Shown here piece after piece: positions 249-19,478 of a stretch of 64,000 bases of DNA; position 1 is the stretch's first letter; each line of letters opens with the position of its first letter. The stretch covers positions 1,550,001 to 1,614,000 of the forward strand of contig NZ_CP014634.1 in NCBI RefSeq assembly GCF_001586215.1. Reading direction: 5' to 3'. Origin of the DNA: Corynebacterium simulans (GTDB lineage: Bacteria > Actinomycetota > Actinomycetes > Mycobacteriales > Mycobacteriaceae). The notes under the pieces were generated by a model that was not told the DNA's origin, ran no database searches, and saw only the letters and a list, made by a program, of their open reading frames with translations. Made by a program: the position numbers and the translations under genes.

Positions 249-860
249 TTAGGAAGAAGCGGAGGTGGAAAAACCGGAGTAGTAGTTCTGGAGCACGCTG
301 CGGCGAACGCGTTGAGAGCTTTCTGTGAAGCCATTGCCCCATCGGAAGAAAATCCGGAAAAGGTCATACACAGGTAGCGGAGGTGTGTCCTTCGTGTTCC
401 CTGCTAGTGCGGCGATACGACGAATAGTAGTGATAGCTTCATCCACGTTTTGCGTATGTAATGAGACGAGCCTGCTGGCTACAGCATCCGGATGGCGAGG
501 ATCTAGCGTTTCTTGTTCTGGAGCCAATTTGCGAGAGATGAGGTTGCACCATTGTCCGAGTGATCGGAAACCCGTTTCTTGGGAATCAATGTGCGGTACC
601 GCATCGAATTCCGCAACCAGAGCTGCGAGGCGAAGCGCTACTGTGCGGGTGGTGGGGCTGGCATCGGCAGGCAAAAGAGGAAAAATGAATGGATAGGCGT
701 AGTGCTCCGTAGACTGCGAATTACCGCGGCGAAGGAAAGCACGGGTGCGGCGCCATTCACTGCCGGAATGGGAAGTGGGTTTGTCGTGGTAATTACGCAC
801 AGATTGAGTCAGCCAGGTCAAAAGTGGCTGCCATTCTGGCGTAGATTGTGTGTGATTCAT
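249..860 (-). CDS. cse2: Cse2 (CasB/Cas11e) small subunit of Cascade
   Basis: Small all-alpha subunit that stabilises crRNA and the displaced strand in type I-E Cascade. The 203-residue length fits the family. Visible family traits are the N-terminal WRRTRAFLRRGNS region and the basic C-terminal RVRRSVLQNYY segment. The start ATG at 860 follows AAGGA. It lies 15 bp downstream of cas8e and 27 bp upstream of cas7e, so the three are almost certainly co-transcribed. The assignment rests on size, weak motif resemblance and strong operon context. Confidence 0.8.
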   Translation of the reverse strand: MNHTQSTPEWQPLLTWLTQSVRNYHDKPTSHSGSEWRRTRAFLRRGNSQSTEHYAYPFIFPLLPADASPTTRTVALRLAALVAEFDAVPHIDSQETGFRSLGQWCNLISRKLAPEQETLDPRHPDAVASRLVSLHTQNVDEAITTIRRIAALAGNTKDTPPLPVYDLFRIFFRWGNGFTESSQRVRRSVLQNYYSGFSTSASS

Positions 861-875
861 CCTTTTCCTTAGAAA

Positions 876-2465
876 TTAGGTGGTGGGGTCGTCGGGGTCT
901 TCGGCAACAAAATCCTTGATGTGCCGTTTTACCCAGTACTCGACCCCGGCTCGAACGTGGGCAATCCGTGCGGGCTCTTGACCAAAATGTGGTTGTGTGA
1001 CTGAATCAAAAGCGGCCATGGAAGCGGTGTGTAGCCCGGTACGCAGCTCCGGGGAAGCGATGAACTCGCTCTTGGCTGAACGGCACTCTTTGAGCAGCAA
1101 AGAGAAATTGTGGGACATATTGCGCCAAAAGGCTTCGCTTACATCTCCGCGGCTGGATTCCAAAAAATCCAAAACTAGCGGTACTTTGCCGCCTGCACGC
1201 TCGTTAGCGTTTTCTCGGCGGAATGGGCGGATTACGGTGCTATGAAGCTTGTCGATGCAGTTTGCACCAAGCCTGATATCAGCTTGCACACCAGGATTGG
1301 TGTCGTGGGCCCACTCCTCATCACGAGGGAAGAATATGTCGGAAGCGCGAATATTGGGGCTAGAAGCGGTACCCTCCATGCGGTGCCGGATGAACACTAG
1401 GCGTGCTTCAGCTGTTGGAGGAAGTATGTGGGATGAGCTGGCCTTTTCAAACTCCGCGGTTTTATTTTGTGCAGCCCAGTTGATGGCCAAAGCAGTAGCA
1501 TCTTTACCCAGATCTAGACGCTGAAGTTTTAGCTCTTTGCCATTATTGATGTACAGGTAGAACGGGTCTTTTTGATTGCGCAGCGTCCACCAATCTTTTT
1601 GCTGATCTTTGCTGCCCATCTCGGTAAGGAACCATTCAGGCGGTACACCGCCGGTGCGGACACCAACAAGCTCTGATGCTTCCCAGGCTGTAGCAGGGGA
1701 ATTAGAAGTCCACGTGGCCGACCATAGCGGGTGAACTATCCCGTCGTGGCGCGAGTACGCGCAGGTGCGGTCAGCCCATGCGGGAAGGCCTGTGCCCTTG
1801 ACCCATGACTGTGGAATTGCCATGAGCAAGGTTTCTAGTAATGATTGCCCATGCCACAGCACTTCTGTTGCCGAATTCTCAGTACCAACAAAACGCATCG
1901 CCGGGGAACCAGAAACGCATTTGTCACCGCAGTACGCATTGTTGCCTGCTACGGATAGGTGATGATAAGTCACGAGCCACATCACTGCATCTTCTAGAGA
2001 TAACCGTTCCTGGTTAGCGGTGAGAAGGTTGGCAAAGTCTTCCGACTCATTGGGTGGCATAGCCGGTGACAGTTTCTTGACTGGATGAGTCCCGGGGCCA
2101 ACATAAGTTGCTTTGTCCTTGGGGTTGGACGTATTAACTGCCGGTCGTTGCATGAATGGGAATTGTGCGTCGTGCAAGTAAGCACCAGCGCTGAGCTCTT
2201 CGAGAGCCTTATCAACGGCCGCTTCAGATAGGCCGAGATTGAGTAATTCGGCAGGGGTTTTGGCTTCGTGCCGTAGTACTACTGCAGTAATGCCTGCCAA
2301 AAGTCGAACCTGAGAGCTGAAATGAAAACCGGGTTGCGAAGAAGTGATATCGAAATCGTGTTTGTGGGCCCTAAGGAGTGCATCACGCACGCTTAGCCGG
2401 CCTTGTGATGTCGGCAGAAATTCGACATTTGTCAGGCAATTGATGTTTGGACTCTCTGATGTCAT
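876..2465 (-). CDS. cas8e: Cas8e/Cse1 (CasA) large subunit of Cascade
   Basis: Large subunit of type I-E Cascade that recognises the PAM and recruits Cas3. At 529 residues it has the usual Cse1 length. The N-terminal region (residues 8-35) has the Cse1 pattern of a short strand, a G-x-L-S-V turn and DALLRAH; the middle has the typical AMRFVGTENSATEVLWHGQS region. It is the first recognisable gene of the operon; the start ATG has GAAGG upstream. In most I-E loci cas3 precedes this gene, but no intact cas3 is seen here (see 2516-2773). Confidence 0.85.
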   Translation of the reverse strand: MTSESPNINCLTNVEFLPTSQGRLSVRDALLRAHKHDFDITSSQPGFHFSSQVRLLAGITAVVLRHEAKTPAELLNLGLSEAAVDKALEELSAGAYLHDAQFPFMQRPAVNTSNPKDKATYVGPGTHPVKKLSPAMPPNESEDFANLLTANQERLSLEDAVMWLVTYHHLSVAGNNAYCGDKCVSGSPAMRFVGTENSATEVLWHGQSLLETLLMAIPQSWVKGTGLPAWADRTCAYSRHDGIVHPLWSATWTSNSPATAWEASELVGVRTGGVPPEWFLTEMGSKDQQKDWWTLRNQKDPFYLYINNGKELKLQRLDLGKDATALAINWAAQNKTAEFEKASSSHILPPTAEARLVFIRHRMEGTASSPNIRASDIFFPRDEEWAHDTNPGVQADIRLGANCIDKLHSTVIRPFRRENANERAGGKVPLVLDFLESSRGDVSEAFWRNMSHNFSLLLKECRSAKSEFIASPELRTGLHTASMAAFDSVTQPHFGQEPARIAHVRAGVEYWVKRHIKDFVAEDPDDPTT

Positions 2466-2515
2466 CGAGACCTTCTTTCTTCAGTGCGAGCCTAAAATTC
2501 ACTCTAGTGCGCAGA

Positions 2516-2773
2516 TCATTTGGGCATAGGAAAATTTCTCAAAAATTTTTCCAATTCAGTTAAATAGTTGACGTTTCTATCGAATTGGTGAAAGCGGCTA
2601 GCGCGGTGCGCGAGACGGAGTGTCTTTAGTGAATGTGCTGGAATAGGAGTCATACTGGTGACGATAGTCTTTGGCCTGGACACGTCTAGCTGATATTCGG
2701 ATGATTGTTCGATCGTTGAGGTGAGCGCCGACACTAGAATTGGCTGTCCGTCCTGCCTTCTGACTGCGTCCTT
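2516..2773 (-). pseudogene. Possible decayed cas3 helicase fragment
   Basis: An open frame of about 85 codons bounded by TAA upstream and TGA downstream ends 50 bp before cas8e. It has no good start or ribosome site. Its order of short motifs, ILVSALTSTIEQS, then VTSMTPI, then LRLAHRASRFHQFDR, resembles helicase motifs V-VI of Cas3 (ILVATQ-(V/I)EQS-LD, TDLAPI, LQR-GR-HRH). The position directly before cas8e is where cas3 normally sits. The match is by eye and imperfect; it may be chance. Confidence 0.25.
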
Positions 2774-2793
2774 TTAGCGGTGAAAACGTCCAA

Positions 2794-2850
2794 AGCCCTC
2801 GTCATCCCCTAGAAAGTGACGGTGTTTCCGTTTGTGGGGAGACGAGGGCT
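2794..2850 (-). terminator. Hairpin downstream of phoA
   Basis: A 15-bp stem (AGCCCTCGTC-A-TCCCC at 2794-2809 against GGGGAGACGAGGGCT at 2836-2850, one bulged A) lies 43 bp after the phoA stop. Read on the minus strand it is followed by a short T-rich run. Probably the phoA transcription terminator. Confidence 0.65.
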
Positions 2851-2892
2851 GGTGCTTGTCCGCGGCTTAGTGGCGGGGCGTCGGCTAGCGCA

Positions 2893-4476
2893 TTAGGCGA
2901 ACTGCTTGATGAGGTCTTGCAGAGCCTTGAAGTCGAACTTGACCAGGCCAAGGGCCTGAGCGGCAGCGGTGATGATGCCGAAGATGAGGGCCATCACGCC
3001 GGCGCCAGCCAGGCCAGCGCCTGCAGAAGAGGAGCCGTCGGAGGAACCGTCGTTAGATGGCTTGTTGTCGGTGTCGCCGGGGTTGTTGGTGTCGTCTTCA
3101 GCGGTGTTGAACCACCACTCGTCCAGGGCCAGCTTGGCCACGGTGGTGTTGTCGATGTACTCGCCGCGGACTGGGTCGGTGCCAGAAACCTTAGCCTGGA
3201 TATCTTCGGAGCCAGCGCCCTTGAAGAAGAACGGTACTACCTGGTTGGTGTGGTTGGTGGAGTACCACTCGTGGGTCGGAGCGGTGCCCTTGGTGCCGGT
3301 CTGTGGCTTCCAAGCGTCGGTCTCATCCTTGCCGGAGAGGTAACCAGTCTCGTGGTCAGCGGTGACAATCAGCAGGGTTTCCTCCCAGGAGGAGTTCTTC
3401 TCAACCCAGTCGATGGCGGCGTCGACAGCCGCGTTGAAGTCCTGGACCTCTTCGATGTCGCGGCCGGTCTGGTTTGCGTGGCCGGACCAGTCGATGGCGC
3501 CGCCTTCAATCATGAGGGAGAAGCCGTCCTCGTCCTGGCCCAGGGCGTTGAGTGCGCCGTTGGTCATGGTCGGCAGGTCAACCACGTCGTTCTTCGGGTC
3601 GGTGCCTGGCTCCTTCGCTTCAGCATCGCCGGAGCGGTTCTGCTGCAGGGTGGTTGCAACTGGTGCCAGGCCGAAGTACTTCTTACCCTCTTCTGCGTTG
3701 CCAGCAGCCAGGGACTCAAAGCCGGCGGTGTTATCGGTGAACTCCCAGCCCTTCGAGCCGTCGCGAAGCGCAGCGAGGTTCTCCTTGGAGATGTAGGAGT
3801 AGTCCTCGGAACCGGCAGCAACCTTCTGCGCGTCATCGTTGTACTTAGGGTGGCCCGCACCCATGATGACGGAGAGATCGGAGTTGATCATGGAATCGCC
3901 GATCTCCAGGTAGTTGTTGCGGTTCTTGTTGTGCGCCGCGAACGCCGCTGGGGTGGCGTGGTCGAACGGTACGGAAGTGACGACGCCTGCGGACTTGCCC
4001 TCGCGGATGGCGCGCTCGGAGAGGTTTTCCATTTCGTGGCCGTAGGAAGAGACGCCCAGGGTGCCATTATCAACCTTGGAGCCGGTGGCCATTGCGGTGC
4101 CGGCCGCAGCAGAGTCGGTAGGGCCTTGCTTGATGTACTCGTGGTCAGACCATGCCTTGGCTGGGTCGTAGGAGCCGCCGTGCGGGAAGGTAGTCATGGA
4201 CAGACGGTTGAAGTCCTCGAATGCCTGGACGGATTCGCCTTCGAGCTCCTTCGCAGTGTCCGGACCGAATGCGCCTTCAACCAGGTACTTGGACTGGCCG
4301 GACTCGTAGAGATTGTTGGAGGCGATGTGGCCGTAGCCCATACCGTCACCAATCATGTAAATGATGTTCTTAGGGCCAGAAGCAGCGGCGTGTGCTGGGG
4401 CGACAAGGCCGGTGGTCAGGGCGGTAGTGGCTACTGCGGCCACGCTAACGCGCAGGGCGCGAGAGAAGTTGCGCAT
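2893..4476 (-). CDS. phoA: Secreted alkaline phosphatase (PhoA family)
   Basis: Hydrolyses phosphate monoesters outside the membrane to release phosphate. I chose the ATG at 4476 (527 residues), because it starts a clean signal peptide (RNFSRALRVSVAAVATTALT, cleavage after AHA); the longer open frame from 4566 adds only untypical residues. Family motifs: metal-binding GDGMGYGH, nucleophile region GPTDSAAAGTAMATG, EGGAIDWSGHAN, TADHETG and a C-terminal HTNQVV metal histidine. After the catalytic domain come an Asn/Asp/Ser-rich linker, a hydrophobic helix (AGVMALIFGIITAAAQ) and a lysine/phenylalanine amphipathic end, suggesting retention at the cell surface. It probably responds to phosphate supply, but I cannot identify a Pho box with certainty. 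Confidence 0.92.
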   Translation of the reverse strand: MRNFSRALRVSVAAVATTALTTGLVAPAHAAASGPKNIIYMIGDGMGYGHIASNNLYESGQSKYLVEGAFGPDTAKELEGESVQAFEDFNRLSMTTFPHGGSYDPAKAWSDHEYIKQGPTDSAAAGTAMATGSKVDNGTLGVSSYGHEMENLSERAIREGKSAGVVTSVPFDHATPAAFAAHNKNRNNYLEIGDSMINSDLSVIMGAGHPKYNDDAQKVAAGSEDYSYISKENLAALRDGSKGWEFTDNTAGFESLAAGNAEEGKKYFGLAPVATTLQQNRSGDAEAKEPGTDPKNDVVDLPTMTNGALNALGQDEDGFSLMIEGGAIDWSGHANQTGRDIEEVQDFNAAVDAAIDWVEKNSSWEETLLIVTADHETGYLSGKDETDAWKPQTGTKGTAPTHEWYSTNHTNQVVPFFFKGAGSEDIQAKVSGTDPVRGEYIDNTTVAKLALDEWWFNTAEDDTNNPGDTDNKPSNDGSSDGSSSAGAGLAGAGVMALIFGIITAAAQALGLVKFDFKALQDLIKQFA

Positions 4477-16287: not shown

Positions 16288-16312
16288 TGCGGAATCGTTC
16301 CTTTCGCGAGTA

Positions 16313-16330
16313 ACTGATCGTTCGGTCAGT
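16313..16330. promoter_or_regulatory. Putative PaaR operator in the paaZ/thioesterase intergenic region
   Basis: ACTGATCGTTCGGTCAGT is an 18-bp imperfect palindrome with perfect ACTGA/TCAGT ends. Next to it, TATAAT (16343-16348, plus) and TATACT (16341-16346, minus) provide overlapping divergent -10 boxes. Close relatives of the palindrome occur at the paaA and paaK promoters, so I assign it to the locus's TetR regulator. Confidence 0.7.
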
Positions 16331-16376
16331 AATTTAAGTTAGTATAATCCACATCACATAGCGAGGAGGAAGAACC

Positions 16377-16769
16377 ATGCAGCAATGGCAAATTGTGCTC
16401 GGTGAGCTAGACAAGAAAATGGGCGTTGAGGTGCTCGAACAGTCGCCGGAGAAAGTTGTGGCCACAATGCCTGTGGAGGGGAATACGCAGTCCTTCGGCC
16501 TCTTGCACGGCGGTGCGATGGTGTGCCTAGCCGAGGCCGTGGGCAGCTGGGCGGCCGTCATCCATGCTTCGACGCAGGGCAAGGTAGCTGTGGGCGTGGA
16601 CATCAACGCCACGCATCACTCTTCCGGACGCGCCGGGTTGGTTACCGCAACTGCGACGGCCATCAAGTTGGGGCGCACGCTGTGTAGCCACGAGGTCGTG
16701 ATTACCGACGAAGCCGGCAAGCGCCTGTGCACCGCGCGAATCACGAACGCATTGGTGGAAAGAAGCTAG
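16377..16769 (+). CDS. PaaI-family hotdog thioesterase
   Basis: A 130-residue hotdog-fold acyl-CoA thioesterase with the family motif FGLLHGGAMVCLAEAVGSWA (active-site Glu in LAEA) and the following VGVDINATHHSS strand. It resembles aryl/hydroxynaphthoyl-CoA thioesterases more than PaaI proper, which is encoded at 25453-25887. Strong ribosome site GAGGAGG. It shares the PaaR-type operator with paaZ, so it probably removes stalled or toxic CoA intermediates when phenylacetate is used; the exact substrate is not known. Confidence 0.82.
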   Translation: MQQWQIVLGELDKKMGVEVLEQSPEKVVATMPVEGNTQSFGLLHGGAMVCLAEAVGSWAAVIHASTQGKVAVGVDINATHHSSGRAGLVTATATAIKLGRTLCSHEVVITDEAGKRLCTARITNALVERS

Positions 16770-16773
16770 GTTA

Positions 16774-16842
16774 GCCGCCCTAGATGCCAAATCGACGCAT
16801 GTTGGCTGCCTGAATGGGCCACGATTTGGCATCTAGGCAGGC
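16774..16842. repeat. Palindromic repeat, left copy
   Basis: A 21-bp arm (16774-16794, core CCTAGATGCCAAATCG) pairs with 16822-16842 with two mismatches around a 27-base loop. It starts 4 bp after the thioesterase stop but has no T tail. The arm sequence recurs at 17794-17858 on the other side of the DUF559 gene. Confidence 0.85.
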
Positions 16843-16913
16843 GTGAGCGCCTCCACCGCTTCAAGCTGCACACCCCGCCCGCCGGTGCTAGCTTCCAATT
16901 GGGGGAGATAATC

Positions 16914-17801
16914 ATGCACAAGGGCTTAGTGTCGGGGCTGACGAAGAGCCAACTGGCCACGCATATCAAACACGGGCGCGTCACCAAGATTGCGCGGGGG
17001 CTCAACGTTTGGGGTAGGCCTACGCCGCTGGAAGTGCTCTGGGCGGTCCAACAGCGATACCCGCAGGCCGTCGCCACTGGGCGGACAGCCGCGCAGTTGT
17101 ATCTGAAGCGCGAGGTGACACTGCCATTAGAACTCGCCGCACCGAAGCGTCTGCCAGCATCTACGTATTATTCCGCGCGGCGAAGCGTGCGGGAGCAGAC
17201 GCGCGAAGTGCTGGGCTGCTCCGTGCAGAATCCGCTGTTGGCTCTCGAACAGATTGACTGGGGCCGCGGCATCGAGCTCTGCGAGGCGCTTTATTCCGGA
17301 CATCGCGGGCGCGAGAAGCTCGAGGCAGACCGGGCTGAAATATCCAGTCTGCCCGCCCGAGCGCAGGAGCTGTTGAGGTCCGCAGTATTGTTCACCGACT
17401 CCAGCGCGGAGATTGCGGTTGCACGGGCACTCCAGCAGGCAGGGCTGAAGATTGAATGCAACGTATTCATCGGCGTGCATCGCTGGGACATCGTGATTCC
17501 CTCACGCAAGATAGCCATCGAGATTAACGGGCTGAAGTTCCATTCCGAGTTGGGCGTGTGGATTCGCGATCACTGGAAGAACAACGAAGCCGTATTAAGA
17601 GGTTGGCGGACTTTGCGCTACACCGGCCATTGCGTGGCGCATCACCTAGATTACATCGTGGAGCAGGTAGCGCAGCCGCCCAATTGGTCGCGGCGTTTCT
17701 ATTCCTTCGTTCACCTCTGGCACAAGGCGCTGCTGCCTAAACCATGGGAGGAATACGCGCTGCCGCCAGAGCCGGAGTGGGTACACGAAATATCGCCCTA
17801 A
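16914..17801 (+). CDS. AbiEi-like N-terminus fused to a DUF559/Vsr-like nuclease domain
   Basis: A 295-residue protein. Residues about 1-60 look like the winged-helix/AbiEi antitoxin-type domain (TKSQLATHIKHGRVTKIARG). Residues about 160-260 form a DUF559-type, Vsr-related endonuclease fold: Asp192 in HRWDIVIPSRKIAIEINGLK, Glu203, His210, then a GWRTLRYT strand. The start ATG 16914 has GGGGGAG six bases upstream; an earlier TTG at 16899 is unlikely. Its stop codon lies inside the right palindrome. Function is unknown; such proteins are common orphans in actinobacteria. It has no role in phenylacetate catabolism and splits the paa cluster. Confidence 0.75.
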   Translation: MHKGLVSGLTKSQLATHIKHGRVTKIARGLNVWGRPTPLEVLWAVQQRYPQAVATGRTAAQLYLKREVTLPLELAAPKRLPASTYYSARRSVREQTREVLGCSVQNPLLALEQIDWGRGIELCEALYSGHRGREKLEADRAEISSLPARAQELLRSAVLFTDSSAEIAVARALQQAGLKIECNVFIGVHRWDIVIPSRKIAIEINGLKFHSELGVWIRDHWKNNEAVLRGWRTLRYTGHCVAHHLDYIVEQVAQPPNWSRRFYSFVHLWHKALLPKPWEEYALPPEPEWVHEISP

Positions 17802-17858
17802 ATGCCAAATCTGCGCTTTACGACGTCGCGATTTCGCTCCGATTTGGCATCTAGGGCG
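17794..17858. repeat. Palindromic repeat, right copy
   Basis: CGCCCTAAATGCCAAATC (17794-17811) pairs with GATTTGGCATCTAGGGCG (17841-17858) with one mismatch and a 29-base loop. The right arm matches the arm of the left copy (16774-16842) over about 16 bases, while loops differ. The TAA stop of the DUF559 gene lies inside the left arm. Confidence 0.85.
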
Positions 17859-17874
17859 GCGGAACTTAAAAGCG

Positions 17875-18711
17875 CTAGCTGTAGTCGTAGAAGCCCTTGC
17901 CGGACTTGCGGCCGAGCTCCCCGCGAGCGACCATATCGCGCATCAGCTGCGGAGGCGCAAAGCGCTCGCCGAGCTGAGACTCGAGGTACTCGGCGATGCC
18001 GAGACGCACGTCCAAGCCCACGATGTCGGTGAGCTCGAGCGGGCCGATGGGGAACTTGTAGCCCAGCACCATCGCGTTGTCGATATCGCGCGGGGAGGCA
18101 ACGCCTTCCTCCACCATTCGGATGGCCTCCAGCGCAATGGCCACGCCCAAGCGGGAGGACGCGAAGCCGGGGGCATCCTTGACCACAACGGCCGTCTTGC
18201 CCAAAGCCTCAACCCAGCCCTTGGCGTCCTCAACCAGTTCCGCGGGGGTGGAGTCAGCGATGACCACCTCTACCAGCTTGGATGCCGGAACTGGGTTGAA
18301 AAAGTGTAGGCCGATTACGTCGTTGTTTACGCTTCCTGCCAGCTCGGATACGGACAGGGAAGAGGTATTGGTGGCGATGACTGCCTCCGGAGCTGCCGCC
18401 GAAACGTTGGCGAATGCCTGCGTCTTGAGCTCCATGGACTCCGGGACTGCCTCGACTACCAGCGGGAATCCCGCGAAGTCGGCAGCCTCGGTGGACAGCG
18501 TCAGGCGCTGAGCCCACGATTCGAAGGTGCCGGAAGCGCCGCGATCCAGGGAACCCTGGATGGCCTTCTCCACGCGCTGGCGGGCGGCTGCGACGGCATC
18601 GTCGTTGATATCGACGACGTGGACCTGCGCACCCGCTGCCAGGAAGGCATGCGCGATGCCGGCACCCATGCGGCCGCCGCCTAGTACTCCAACTTTATTC
18701 GGGGTTTTCAT
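17875..18711 (-). CDS. paaH: 3-hydroxyadipyl-CoA dehydrogenase
   Basis: NAD-dependent oxidation of 3-hydroxyadipyl-CoA to 3-oxoadipyl-CoA, the second beta-oxidation step of the pathway. 278 residues: Rossmann motif GVLGGGRMGAGIAHAF at the N-terminus, Ser/Asn region ATNTSSLSVSELA, catalytic His in IGLHFFNPVPASKLVEVV and the C-terminal helical domain ending GRKSGKGFYDYS. It is the last gene of the paaA operon, 2 bp after paaF. A fatty-acid role (FadB2-like) is possible, but context favours paa. Confidence 0.9.
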   Translation of the reverse strand: MKTPNKVGVLGGGRMGAGIAHAFLAAGAQVHVVDINDDAVAAARQRVEKAIQGSLDRGASGTFESWAQRLTLSTEAADFAGFPLVVEAVPESMELKTQAFANVSAAAPEAVIATNTSSLSVSELAGSVNNDVIGLHFFNPVPASKLVEVVIADSTPAELVEDAKGWVEALGKTAVVVKDAPGFASSRLGVAIALEAIRMVEEGVASPRDIDNAMVLGYKFPIGPLELTDIVGLDVRLGIAEYLESQLGERFAPPQLMRDMVARGELGRKSGKGFYDYS

Positions 18712-18713
18712 CT

Positions 18714-19478
18714 TTATTTTTCCTTCTTGCGGTCGAGGAATGCTTGCATGCGGTCGAATTTGGCCTGAGACTCGAAGAGCACGGCCTGAGCGATGTTGTC
18801 TACTGAGGGGTGCGCGGAATCCGGCATGTCCATTAGCTGTTTAGTAATGCGCACGGCCAGCGGGTCGAGCGCGGCGATGCGCTCGGCTAGGGCCTTTGCG
18901 CCGTCGAGGAGCTCAGCGGGGGAGTGAACCTCGTTAATAAGGTGTGCCTCCAGCGCCTCTTCGCCGCTTAAGATGCGTCCTGCCAGCAGAATCTCCTTGG
19001 CGAGCGGCACACCGACCGTGTTCTTGAGCCGCCACAGCGCCCCGGCCGCGGCGATGATTCCCAGGTTGGCCTCCGGCTGGCCGAACTTGGCAAACGGGGT
19101 GGCTACCCGGAAATCCGCAGCGAGCGCCAGTTCCAGGCCGCCGCCTAGGGCATAGCCGTCGACGGCAGCGATGACGGGCATCGGCAGCTGGGCGATGCGG
19201 TGAAAGATGCCGGAGTTGATGCCGCGCAGGGCGTCGTCGCGGCGGCGCTCCCGCAGCTGGGCGATGTCCGCGCCCGAGGCGAAGATGCCGCGCGGACCCT
19301 TGGAGGTTTCCACGGTGCAGCCGGTGATGATGAGAATCTGCGGTTCTTGTTCCAACCCCGCGCAGAGTTCGTGCAGCTCAGCCACCATCTGCTCGTCGAT
19401 GGCATTGCGCACCGTTGGGCGGTTCAGGCGGGCTAGAACAAAGCCTTCTTCTTGGGTTATCTCGATAGCGGTACTCAT
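18714..19478 (-). CDS. paaF: 2,3-dehydroadipyl-CoA hydratase (enoyl-CoA hydratase)
   Basis: Crotonase-family hydratase, 254 residues, with oxyanion motifs IFASGADIAQL and AAVDGYALGGGLELALAADF and the catalytic EANLGIIAAAGA region. Adds water to 2,3-dehydroadipyl-CoA. The start ATG overlaps the end of paaJ without spacing, indicating translational coupling. Distinguished from paaG, the other crotonase here, by the two catalytic-type glutamates and gene order next to paaH. Confidence 0.85.
   Translation of the reverse strand: MSTAIEITQEEGFVLARLNRPTVRNAIDEQMVAELHELCAGLEQEPQILIITGCTVETSKGPRGIFASGADIAQLRERRRDDALRGINSGIFHRIAQLPMPVIAAVDGYALGGGLELALAADFRVATPFAKFGQPEANLGIIAAAGALWRLKNTVGVPLAKEILLAGRILSGEEALEAHLINEVHSPAELLDGAKALAERIAALDPLAVRITKQLMDMPDSAHPSVDNIAQAVLFESQAKFDRMQAFLDRKKEK

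Follow-up and report, generated by a model that had tools for sequence, protein, structure and literature searches.

Lineage-specific palindromes accompany an AbiEi/Vsr-type nuclease gene in Corynebacterium and suggest a partnership resembling that of REPINs but with an unrelated enzyme

In the phenylacetate (paa) locus of Corynebacterium simulans, within a stretch of 64,000 nucleotides of contig NZ_CP014634.1 (positions 1,550,001 to 1,614,000; hereafter the window, in whose coordinates its features are given), a gene for a putative nuclease is bracketed by two palindromes with near identical arms. Palindromes also lie beside homologs of this gene in other corynebacteria, and dispersed copies differ among related genomes in their presence and in the orientation of their cores. 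We have little doubt that the association of palindrome and nuclease gene is real and specific. We consider it probable that the two form a partnership like that of REPINs (hairpin-forming doublets of repetitive extragenic palindromic, or REP, sequences) and RAYTs (REP-associated tyrosine transposases), in which an unrelated enzyme, the nuclease, would mobilise and invert the palindromes.

Results

The left palindrome (16774..16842), of the type here called family A, has 21-nt arms that are 90% complementary and a 27-nt loop, and it forms the outer end of an inserted unit. The nuclease gene (16914..17801, forward strand, 295 amino acids) starts at ATG 16914, preceded by GGGGGAG, and ends within the right palindrome (17794..17860), also of family A, which contains its TAA stop codon (17799-17801). 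The arms of the right palindrome (17794-17816 and 17836-17858) are 23 nt long, 87% complementary and separated by 19 nt; its match to the left arm extends to 17860, and the arm at 16774-16794 is a perfect 21-nt inverted match to 17840-17860. The two palindromes differ in their loops. Perfect 16-mer inverted pairs number 14 in the entire window, 7 of them at the nuclease locus. A reading of the letters of the window alone (the original prediction) had described two hairpins with common arms enclosing a gene for an AbiEi-like, nuclease-fold protein, the stop codon inside the right hairpin and no T tail at either. The sequence agrees on each point, with a 21-nt arm shared by two long-loop palindromes. 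A terminator reading of the window palindromes was rejected, a T run being absent after both, as was an RNA-family reading, the sole Rfam match in 16300-18800 (E ≤ 1) being mir-1784, whose 25.1 bits fall short of the cut-off, 98.

The insertion site is marked by two genes outside the unit, a thioesterase gene on the left (16377..16769, forward strand; PF03061) and, on the right, a convergent gene for the 3-hydroxyacyl-CoA dehydrogenase PaaH (17875..18711, reverse strand; PF02737/PF00725); other paa genes around the unit were named by eye from translations of open reading frames (ORFs). Among the paaH loci of nine relatives (L107-L115), the thioesterase gene adjoins paaH in six (L108-L113), where 5 to 34 bp separate the final aligned codons of the pair, as against 1,111 bp in the window, and none of these six junctions holds a nuclease gene or a palindrome. 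Because both are missing there, gene and palindromes form one unit, which was inserted whole at the paa site and interrupts the phenylacetate locus as first proposed. The precise empty site that had been anticipated was obtained in part: the six junctions are empty of gene and palindromes alike, but the relatives have diverged too far for the ends of the unit to be fixed to the base, and a check for target site duplication met the same limit, the flanks being too diverged for base-exact ends. Corynebacterium striatum ATCC 6940 has the same unit at the same place; there, DNA including an N stretch (L013, ~645-4000) separates the left palindrome from the nuclease gene, leaving the palindrome far upstream.

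Palindromes beside the gene were surveyed at 97 homolog loci, the best-scoring part of a longer list, from which L013, L014 and L016 were removed as duplicates; orthologs in different species were counted separately among the remaining 94, of which 91 have 250 bp of upstream sequence. A strict scan (hairpin score of at least 12, loop of 12-49 nt, within 250 bp of the gene) found hairpins upstream in 47 and downstream in 14 of the 94 loci, and 4 in 217 kb of control DNA from these loci, taken at a distance of more than 300 bp. At a score of at least 13 there were 42 upstream, 13 downstream and none in the control, a contrast that is somewhat overstated since the control DNA is mostly coding. 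This family-wide control makes a chance origin of the window palindromes unlikely. Upstream palindromes lie mostly ~35-220 bp ahead of the start, with arms mostly of 16-22 bp and loops mostly of 20-36 nt. Imperfect palindromes are present at some loci that are empty in the strict scan: a loose scan, run without a control on the eight loci of the 49-51% clade (L018-L025), placed a palindrome upstream in 6 and downstream, at the stop codon, also in 6. Palindromes on both sides of the gene occur in the window and at L010, and paralogs are likewise bracketed or preceded by palindromes, though of unrelated sequence. One such paralog, 50% identical, lies at 402877 of the window's own genome (G000) with two palindromes of another sequence around it.

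Several loci show further arrangements: three palindromes in tandem upstream of the gene in L098 and two in L075, and ~90-bp tandem repeats downstream in L028. On the strand of the gene and in unique contexts, arm mismatches of upstream palindromes are G.T in 17 cases and A.C in 4 (3 and 3 downstream), a hint that the sense strand may fold.

Members of one nuclease lineage share their palindrome arms, whereas the arms of different lineages are unrelated. In family C, seven arm pairs have changed on both sides, a number reached by 3 of 500 shuffles; in family B, where 15 of 18 pairs never vary, one has done so (343 of 500 shuffles as high). A diagnostic letter of family A is present in all 11 arms read from copies in G000 and G050, as in their own nuclease unit, and in 1 of 38 arms of copies in the sister group, whose nuclease units likewise do without it.

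Dispersed copies were sought in 201 Corynebacterium genomes with covariance models for family A (R1, built from the copies of the window and C. striatum plus two dispersed ones; E ≤ 0.1) and for families B and C (R2 and R3, built from palindromes upstream of nuclease genes; E ≤ 0.01). Genomes with copies numbered 14, 27 and 27 for R1, R2 and R3, of which 13, 25 and 25 carry a nuclease homolog, compared with a base rate of 104 of the 201 (E ≤ 1e-3). Of the 14 genomes with R1 copies, 12 are among the 13 that have a close nuclease (at least 45% identical). The expectation that the palindrome would track with the gene family was therefore upheld in 12 of these 13 genomes, but not as a strict rule, R1 copies being found also in G190 and G065. 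Fisher values were 0.0014, 1.9e-6 and 1.9e-6 for R1, R2 and R3 against the homolog and 1.8e-16 for R1 against the close nuclease, in genomes that are related and so do not provide independent trials. Copies of the palindrome are thus present at other places in the genome too, but they follow the gene family, whereas the finding named beforehand as damaging was genome-wide palindromes with no link to DUF559 genes.

Convergent genes flank 18 of 29 called copies of family A (4 tandem, 2 divergent, 5 'inside an ORF'), 7 of 20 of family B (10 tandem, 2 divergent, 1 inside an ORF) and 3 of 20 of family C (8 tandem, 1 divergent, 8 inside an ORF), so that only family A shows a preference for convergent pairs. 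These counts come from a simple gene caller and include orthologs more than once, and some of the 20 B copies stem from the family C model; at least some 'inside ORF' calls are spurious, as with L155, an ortholog of the convergent L128. Pairs of copies ~93 bp apart occur, as do B copies next to C copies at ~80 bp. In G109, dispersed units of ~165 bp (L339, L341, L345 and L346) are 77-91% alike; a family C palindrome, shorter than the unit, lies at the centre of each. One unit, L346, has its core flipped.

Sister species differ in their palindrome copies. Of 17 relatives inspected at the ppk2/pls site, 10 were comparable: G050 has a palindrome and the other nine have none. The palindromes of G000 and G050 at this site differ alike in both arms, which may have arisen by paired change or by separate insertion. 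In G050 (L169), an enoyl-CoA hydratase-like gene, named by eye, stands between ppk2 and the palindrome; at the other nine comparable loci the gaps are 17-113 bp. The palindrome of the L132 site is missing in G000, G050 and G011. That of the L148 site is present in G100, G012, G084 and G056 and missing in G185 and G130, as well as in five outgroups inspected by eye (the pattern had no match in G011, and G137 was left out); the empty site of G185 keeps bases resembling the outer right arm.

At four orthologous sites in total, the core of the palindrome is inverted between collinear flanks. L131 and L132 have flanks that are 94-95% identical and 77-bp palindromes that match on opposite strands; in their alignment the arms are alike but the core is flipped, G012 and G056 having one orientation and G185 and G130 the other. 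The core is also flipped in L129 relative to L128/L155, in L147 relative to L138/L162 and, less sharply, in L267 relative to L268. A scripted comparison of 29 pairs, which are not independent and in which the L135 palindrome was mis-called, scored 12 as the same, 9 as inverted and 8 as unclear.

The window protein is predicted to consist of an AbiEi-like domain (residues 1-158) and a Vsr-like nuclease domain (161-257), the architecture first claimed for it. Its match to PF18741 (MTES_1575; E 8.7e-8, 32.6 bits) falls under the Pfam cut-off of 38.2; among 22 homologs, Pfam matches were to MTES_1575 (19), DUF559 (17), AbiEi_4 (12), AbiEi_3_N (5) and Vsr (1). PMC3710099 names MTES_1575 as a Vsr-type nuclease domain. 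Residue E203 of the nuclease is nearly invariant. The Pfam matches of the 22 homologs include no transposase family, and no genome-wide search aimed at RAYT was made. A known defence family was considered for the window protein and rejected, PADLOC giving only weak AbiEi models (E 0.00097 and 0.0084); PADLOC matched P0012 to AbiEi at 1.6e-8 and did not match P0008, and NCBIfam matched none of the three proteins. Homologs are found in 58 of 296 class-level genomes (E ≤ 1e-10). The window's own genome also holds a fifth, distant homolog (G000:C1:2218461-2219180) and a paralog broken by a stop codon (L011, G000:C1:1821396-1822115), upstream of which two family B palindromes remain.

Discussion

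The original prediction offered a REP-type partnership or a small mobile unit, and the layout common to the family, the copies that follow the gene and the insertion of the unit all agree with it. The action of the protein on the palindromes would be as follows. Given arms mostly of 16-22 bp that lie 20-36 bp apart, and the AbiEi precedent of paired repeats, we infer that the AbiEi-like domain binds the ~18-22 bp arms of its lineage-specific palindrome as inverted repeats. One such domain on each arm would set two nuclease domains on one palindrome, and the fused Vsr-like nuclease would then nick or cut at the arms. If both arms were cut to leave like ends, the core could be rejoined in either orientation, lost, or copied to other intergenic sites, a scheme that would account for inversion, loss and spread together. 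The upstream palindrome probably doubles as the autoregulatory operator of the gene. That an AbiEi-guided nuclease of the Vsr fold serves as a site-specific rearranging enzyme, cutting both arms and rejoining the core either way or elsewhere, is a possibility that we put forward tentatively.

The main rival holds that the palindrome is an autoregulatory operator only, the AbiEi-like domain acting on the inverted repeats to repress its own promoter and the dispersed copies being a regulon or debris. It would explain the upstream copies and is consistent with their distance from the start, with the 23-bp inverted repeats of known AbiEi operators (PMC7319586), with the 6 of 29 class-level loci in which a hairpin scoring at least 12 lies within ~150 bp upstream of the match, and with the frequent location of family B and C copies between tandem genes, where promoters could be. 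Downstream copies that overlie the stop codon, the scarcity of family A copies between divergent genes relative to convergent ones (2 and 18 of 29, with orthologs counted more than once), and the presence, absence and inversion of copies all argue against it, and we judge it unlikely. We regard it as improbable that the palindromes are two-way terminators or neutral hairpins, evened out and flipped by template switching during replication, which is a general process, with the nuclease a bystander; A and T runs do frame some copies between convergent genes (L128, L129), but the loops are mostly 20-36 nt, the arms are specific to the nuclease lineage and the 217 kb of flanks lack hairpins scoring 13 or more. 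Spread by another enzyme, such as a RAYT or IS200-type transposase encoded elsewhere, with the nuclease gene captured between two palindromes, is very improbable, for although the layout and the ~93-bp copy pairs resemble REP doublets (PMC3116915), paralogs with unrelated arms each have their own palindrome, so that many separate captures would be needed.

A number of observations weigh against a partnership in which the nuclease mobilises and inverts the palindromes. The co-occurrence of gene and copies is confounded by descent, the tests treating genomes as independent, and no homolog was found in 1 of 14 R1, 2 of 27 R2 and 2 of 27 R3 genomes with copies. Family B copies are present in G064, G084, G167 and G190, where the homologs fetched, which are not all of them, have no plain B-type palindrome. 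Conversely, G004 and G198 carry the gene with no copy away from it among the matches listed, and in the window's genome, where the family B gene L011 is broken, no B copy was listed outside the L011 upstream region (E ≤ 0.01). Copies occupy few places per genome, at least 1 to about 13 by the models, with further diverged copies in existence, and families B and C do not share the preference of family A for convergent gene pairs. In the strict scan, only 7 of 94 loci have palindromes on both sides, and 39 (score of at least 12) or 31 (score of at least 11) have no nearby hairpin. Outside the genus, hairpins scoring at least 12 lie near the match in 7 of 29 class-level loci, 6 of them upstream and 1 at the 3′ end, so that the palindrome rule is established for Corynebacterium only. 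Protein and arm divergence over 63 loci correlate with r 0.70 across all pairs, a value carried by syntenic orthologs; non-syntenic pairs give only r 0.16 (0 of 2000 permutations as high), and arm similarity is at background below ~50% protein identity, so this co-divergence may be taken as weak evidence. Flipped cores and evened-out arms could also result from template switching during replication.

The likeness to REPIN/RAYT systems (PMC3116915, PMC2817692) extends to several features: the enzyme gene adjoins palindromes or lies between them, inverted doublets with a variable spacer are dispersed, and the arms are specific to a lineage; copies also tend to accompany the enzyme gene, though here with exceptions and confounded by descent. 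Dispersed extragenic copies are present in families A, B and C. After excision of a REPIN, the final bases of its right end stay behind (PMC3116915), as may have happened at the empty L148 site of G185. Unlike RAYTs, which are HUH Y1 (IS200/IS605-type) transposases, the enzyme is an AbiEi and Vsr-type nuclease; the few places per genome contrast with over 100; and the arm consensus of the three families, read by eye, lacks the GTAG tag. An unrelated enzyme, low copy number and the missing GTAG set the system outside REPIN/RAYT, though it would operate in the same manner if the inferred role of the nuclease is correct. Its cores flip in place, whereas the word inversion is absent from PMC3116915, and the main text of PMC3733652, a survey of GTAG/CGTC palindromes, has no match for 'Corynebacter'.

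According to PMC7319586, AbiEi and Rv2827c act as repressors of their own genes and bind, upstream of these, paired 23-bp inverted repeats with spacings of 3 and 13 bp. With these antitoxins of type IV toxin-antitoxin (TA) systems (6y8q, Rv2827c) the nuclease shares its N-terminal fold and the ~20-bp inverted repeats upstream; it differs in the nuclease fusion and in repeats that are further apart and found also downstream and dispersed. The window gene, with its thioesterase and 3-hydroxyacyl-CoA dehydrogenase neighbours, also has no AbiEii nucleotidyltransferase toxin gene beside it, unlike AbiE TA systems. Vsr endonuclease and the EDxHD homing endonuclease I-Bth0305I offer a further comparison, but the palindromes flank the window gene and are not interrupted by it, and no intron or intein was found around it on reading the ORFs. 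Six empty sites without a palindrome and a carrier with two are a poor fit to homing if the palindrome is the recognition site.

The enzyme of the palindrome/nuclease system, its DNA-binding domain and its flipping core have no counterpart in REPIN/RAYT; in line with the original prediction, no described system of this kind was found among the open-access papers listed. If the partnership is real, an enzyme that is not an HUH transposase can be dedicated to dispersed palindromes, and many natural protein/site pairs are provided for studying how recognition changes. Were the nuclease a rearranging enzyme of the kind put forward above, the REPIN type of lifestyle would have been invented independently a second time and repeated in many nuclease lineages, each with its own arm code. 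The nuclease genes, which recur in Actinobacteria, gain a testable DNA partner, and most come with their own candidate site; DUF559 is still listed in Pfam as of unknown function.

In another genus, hairpins beside the homologs of the nuclease family in L285, L288 and L289 share a motif like GATTTCGGTGTAG, located at the 3′ end of the gene in L288 and ~95 bp upstream in L285 and L289, and these may represent another palindrome lineage.
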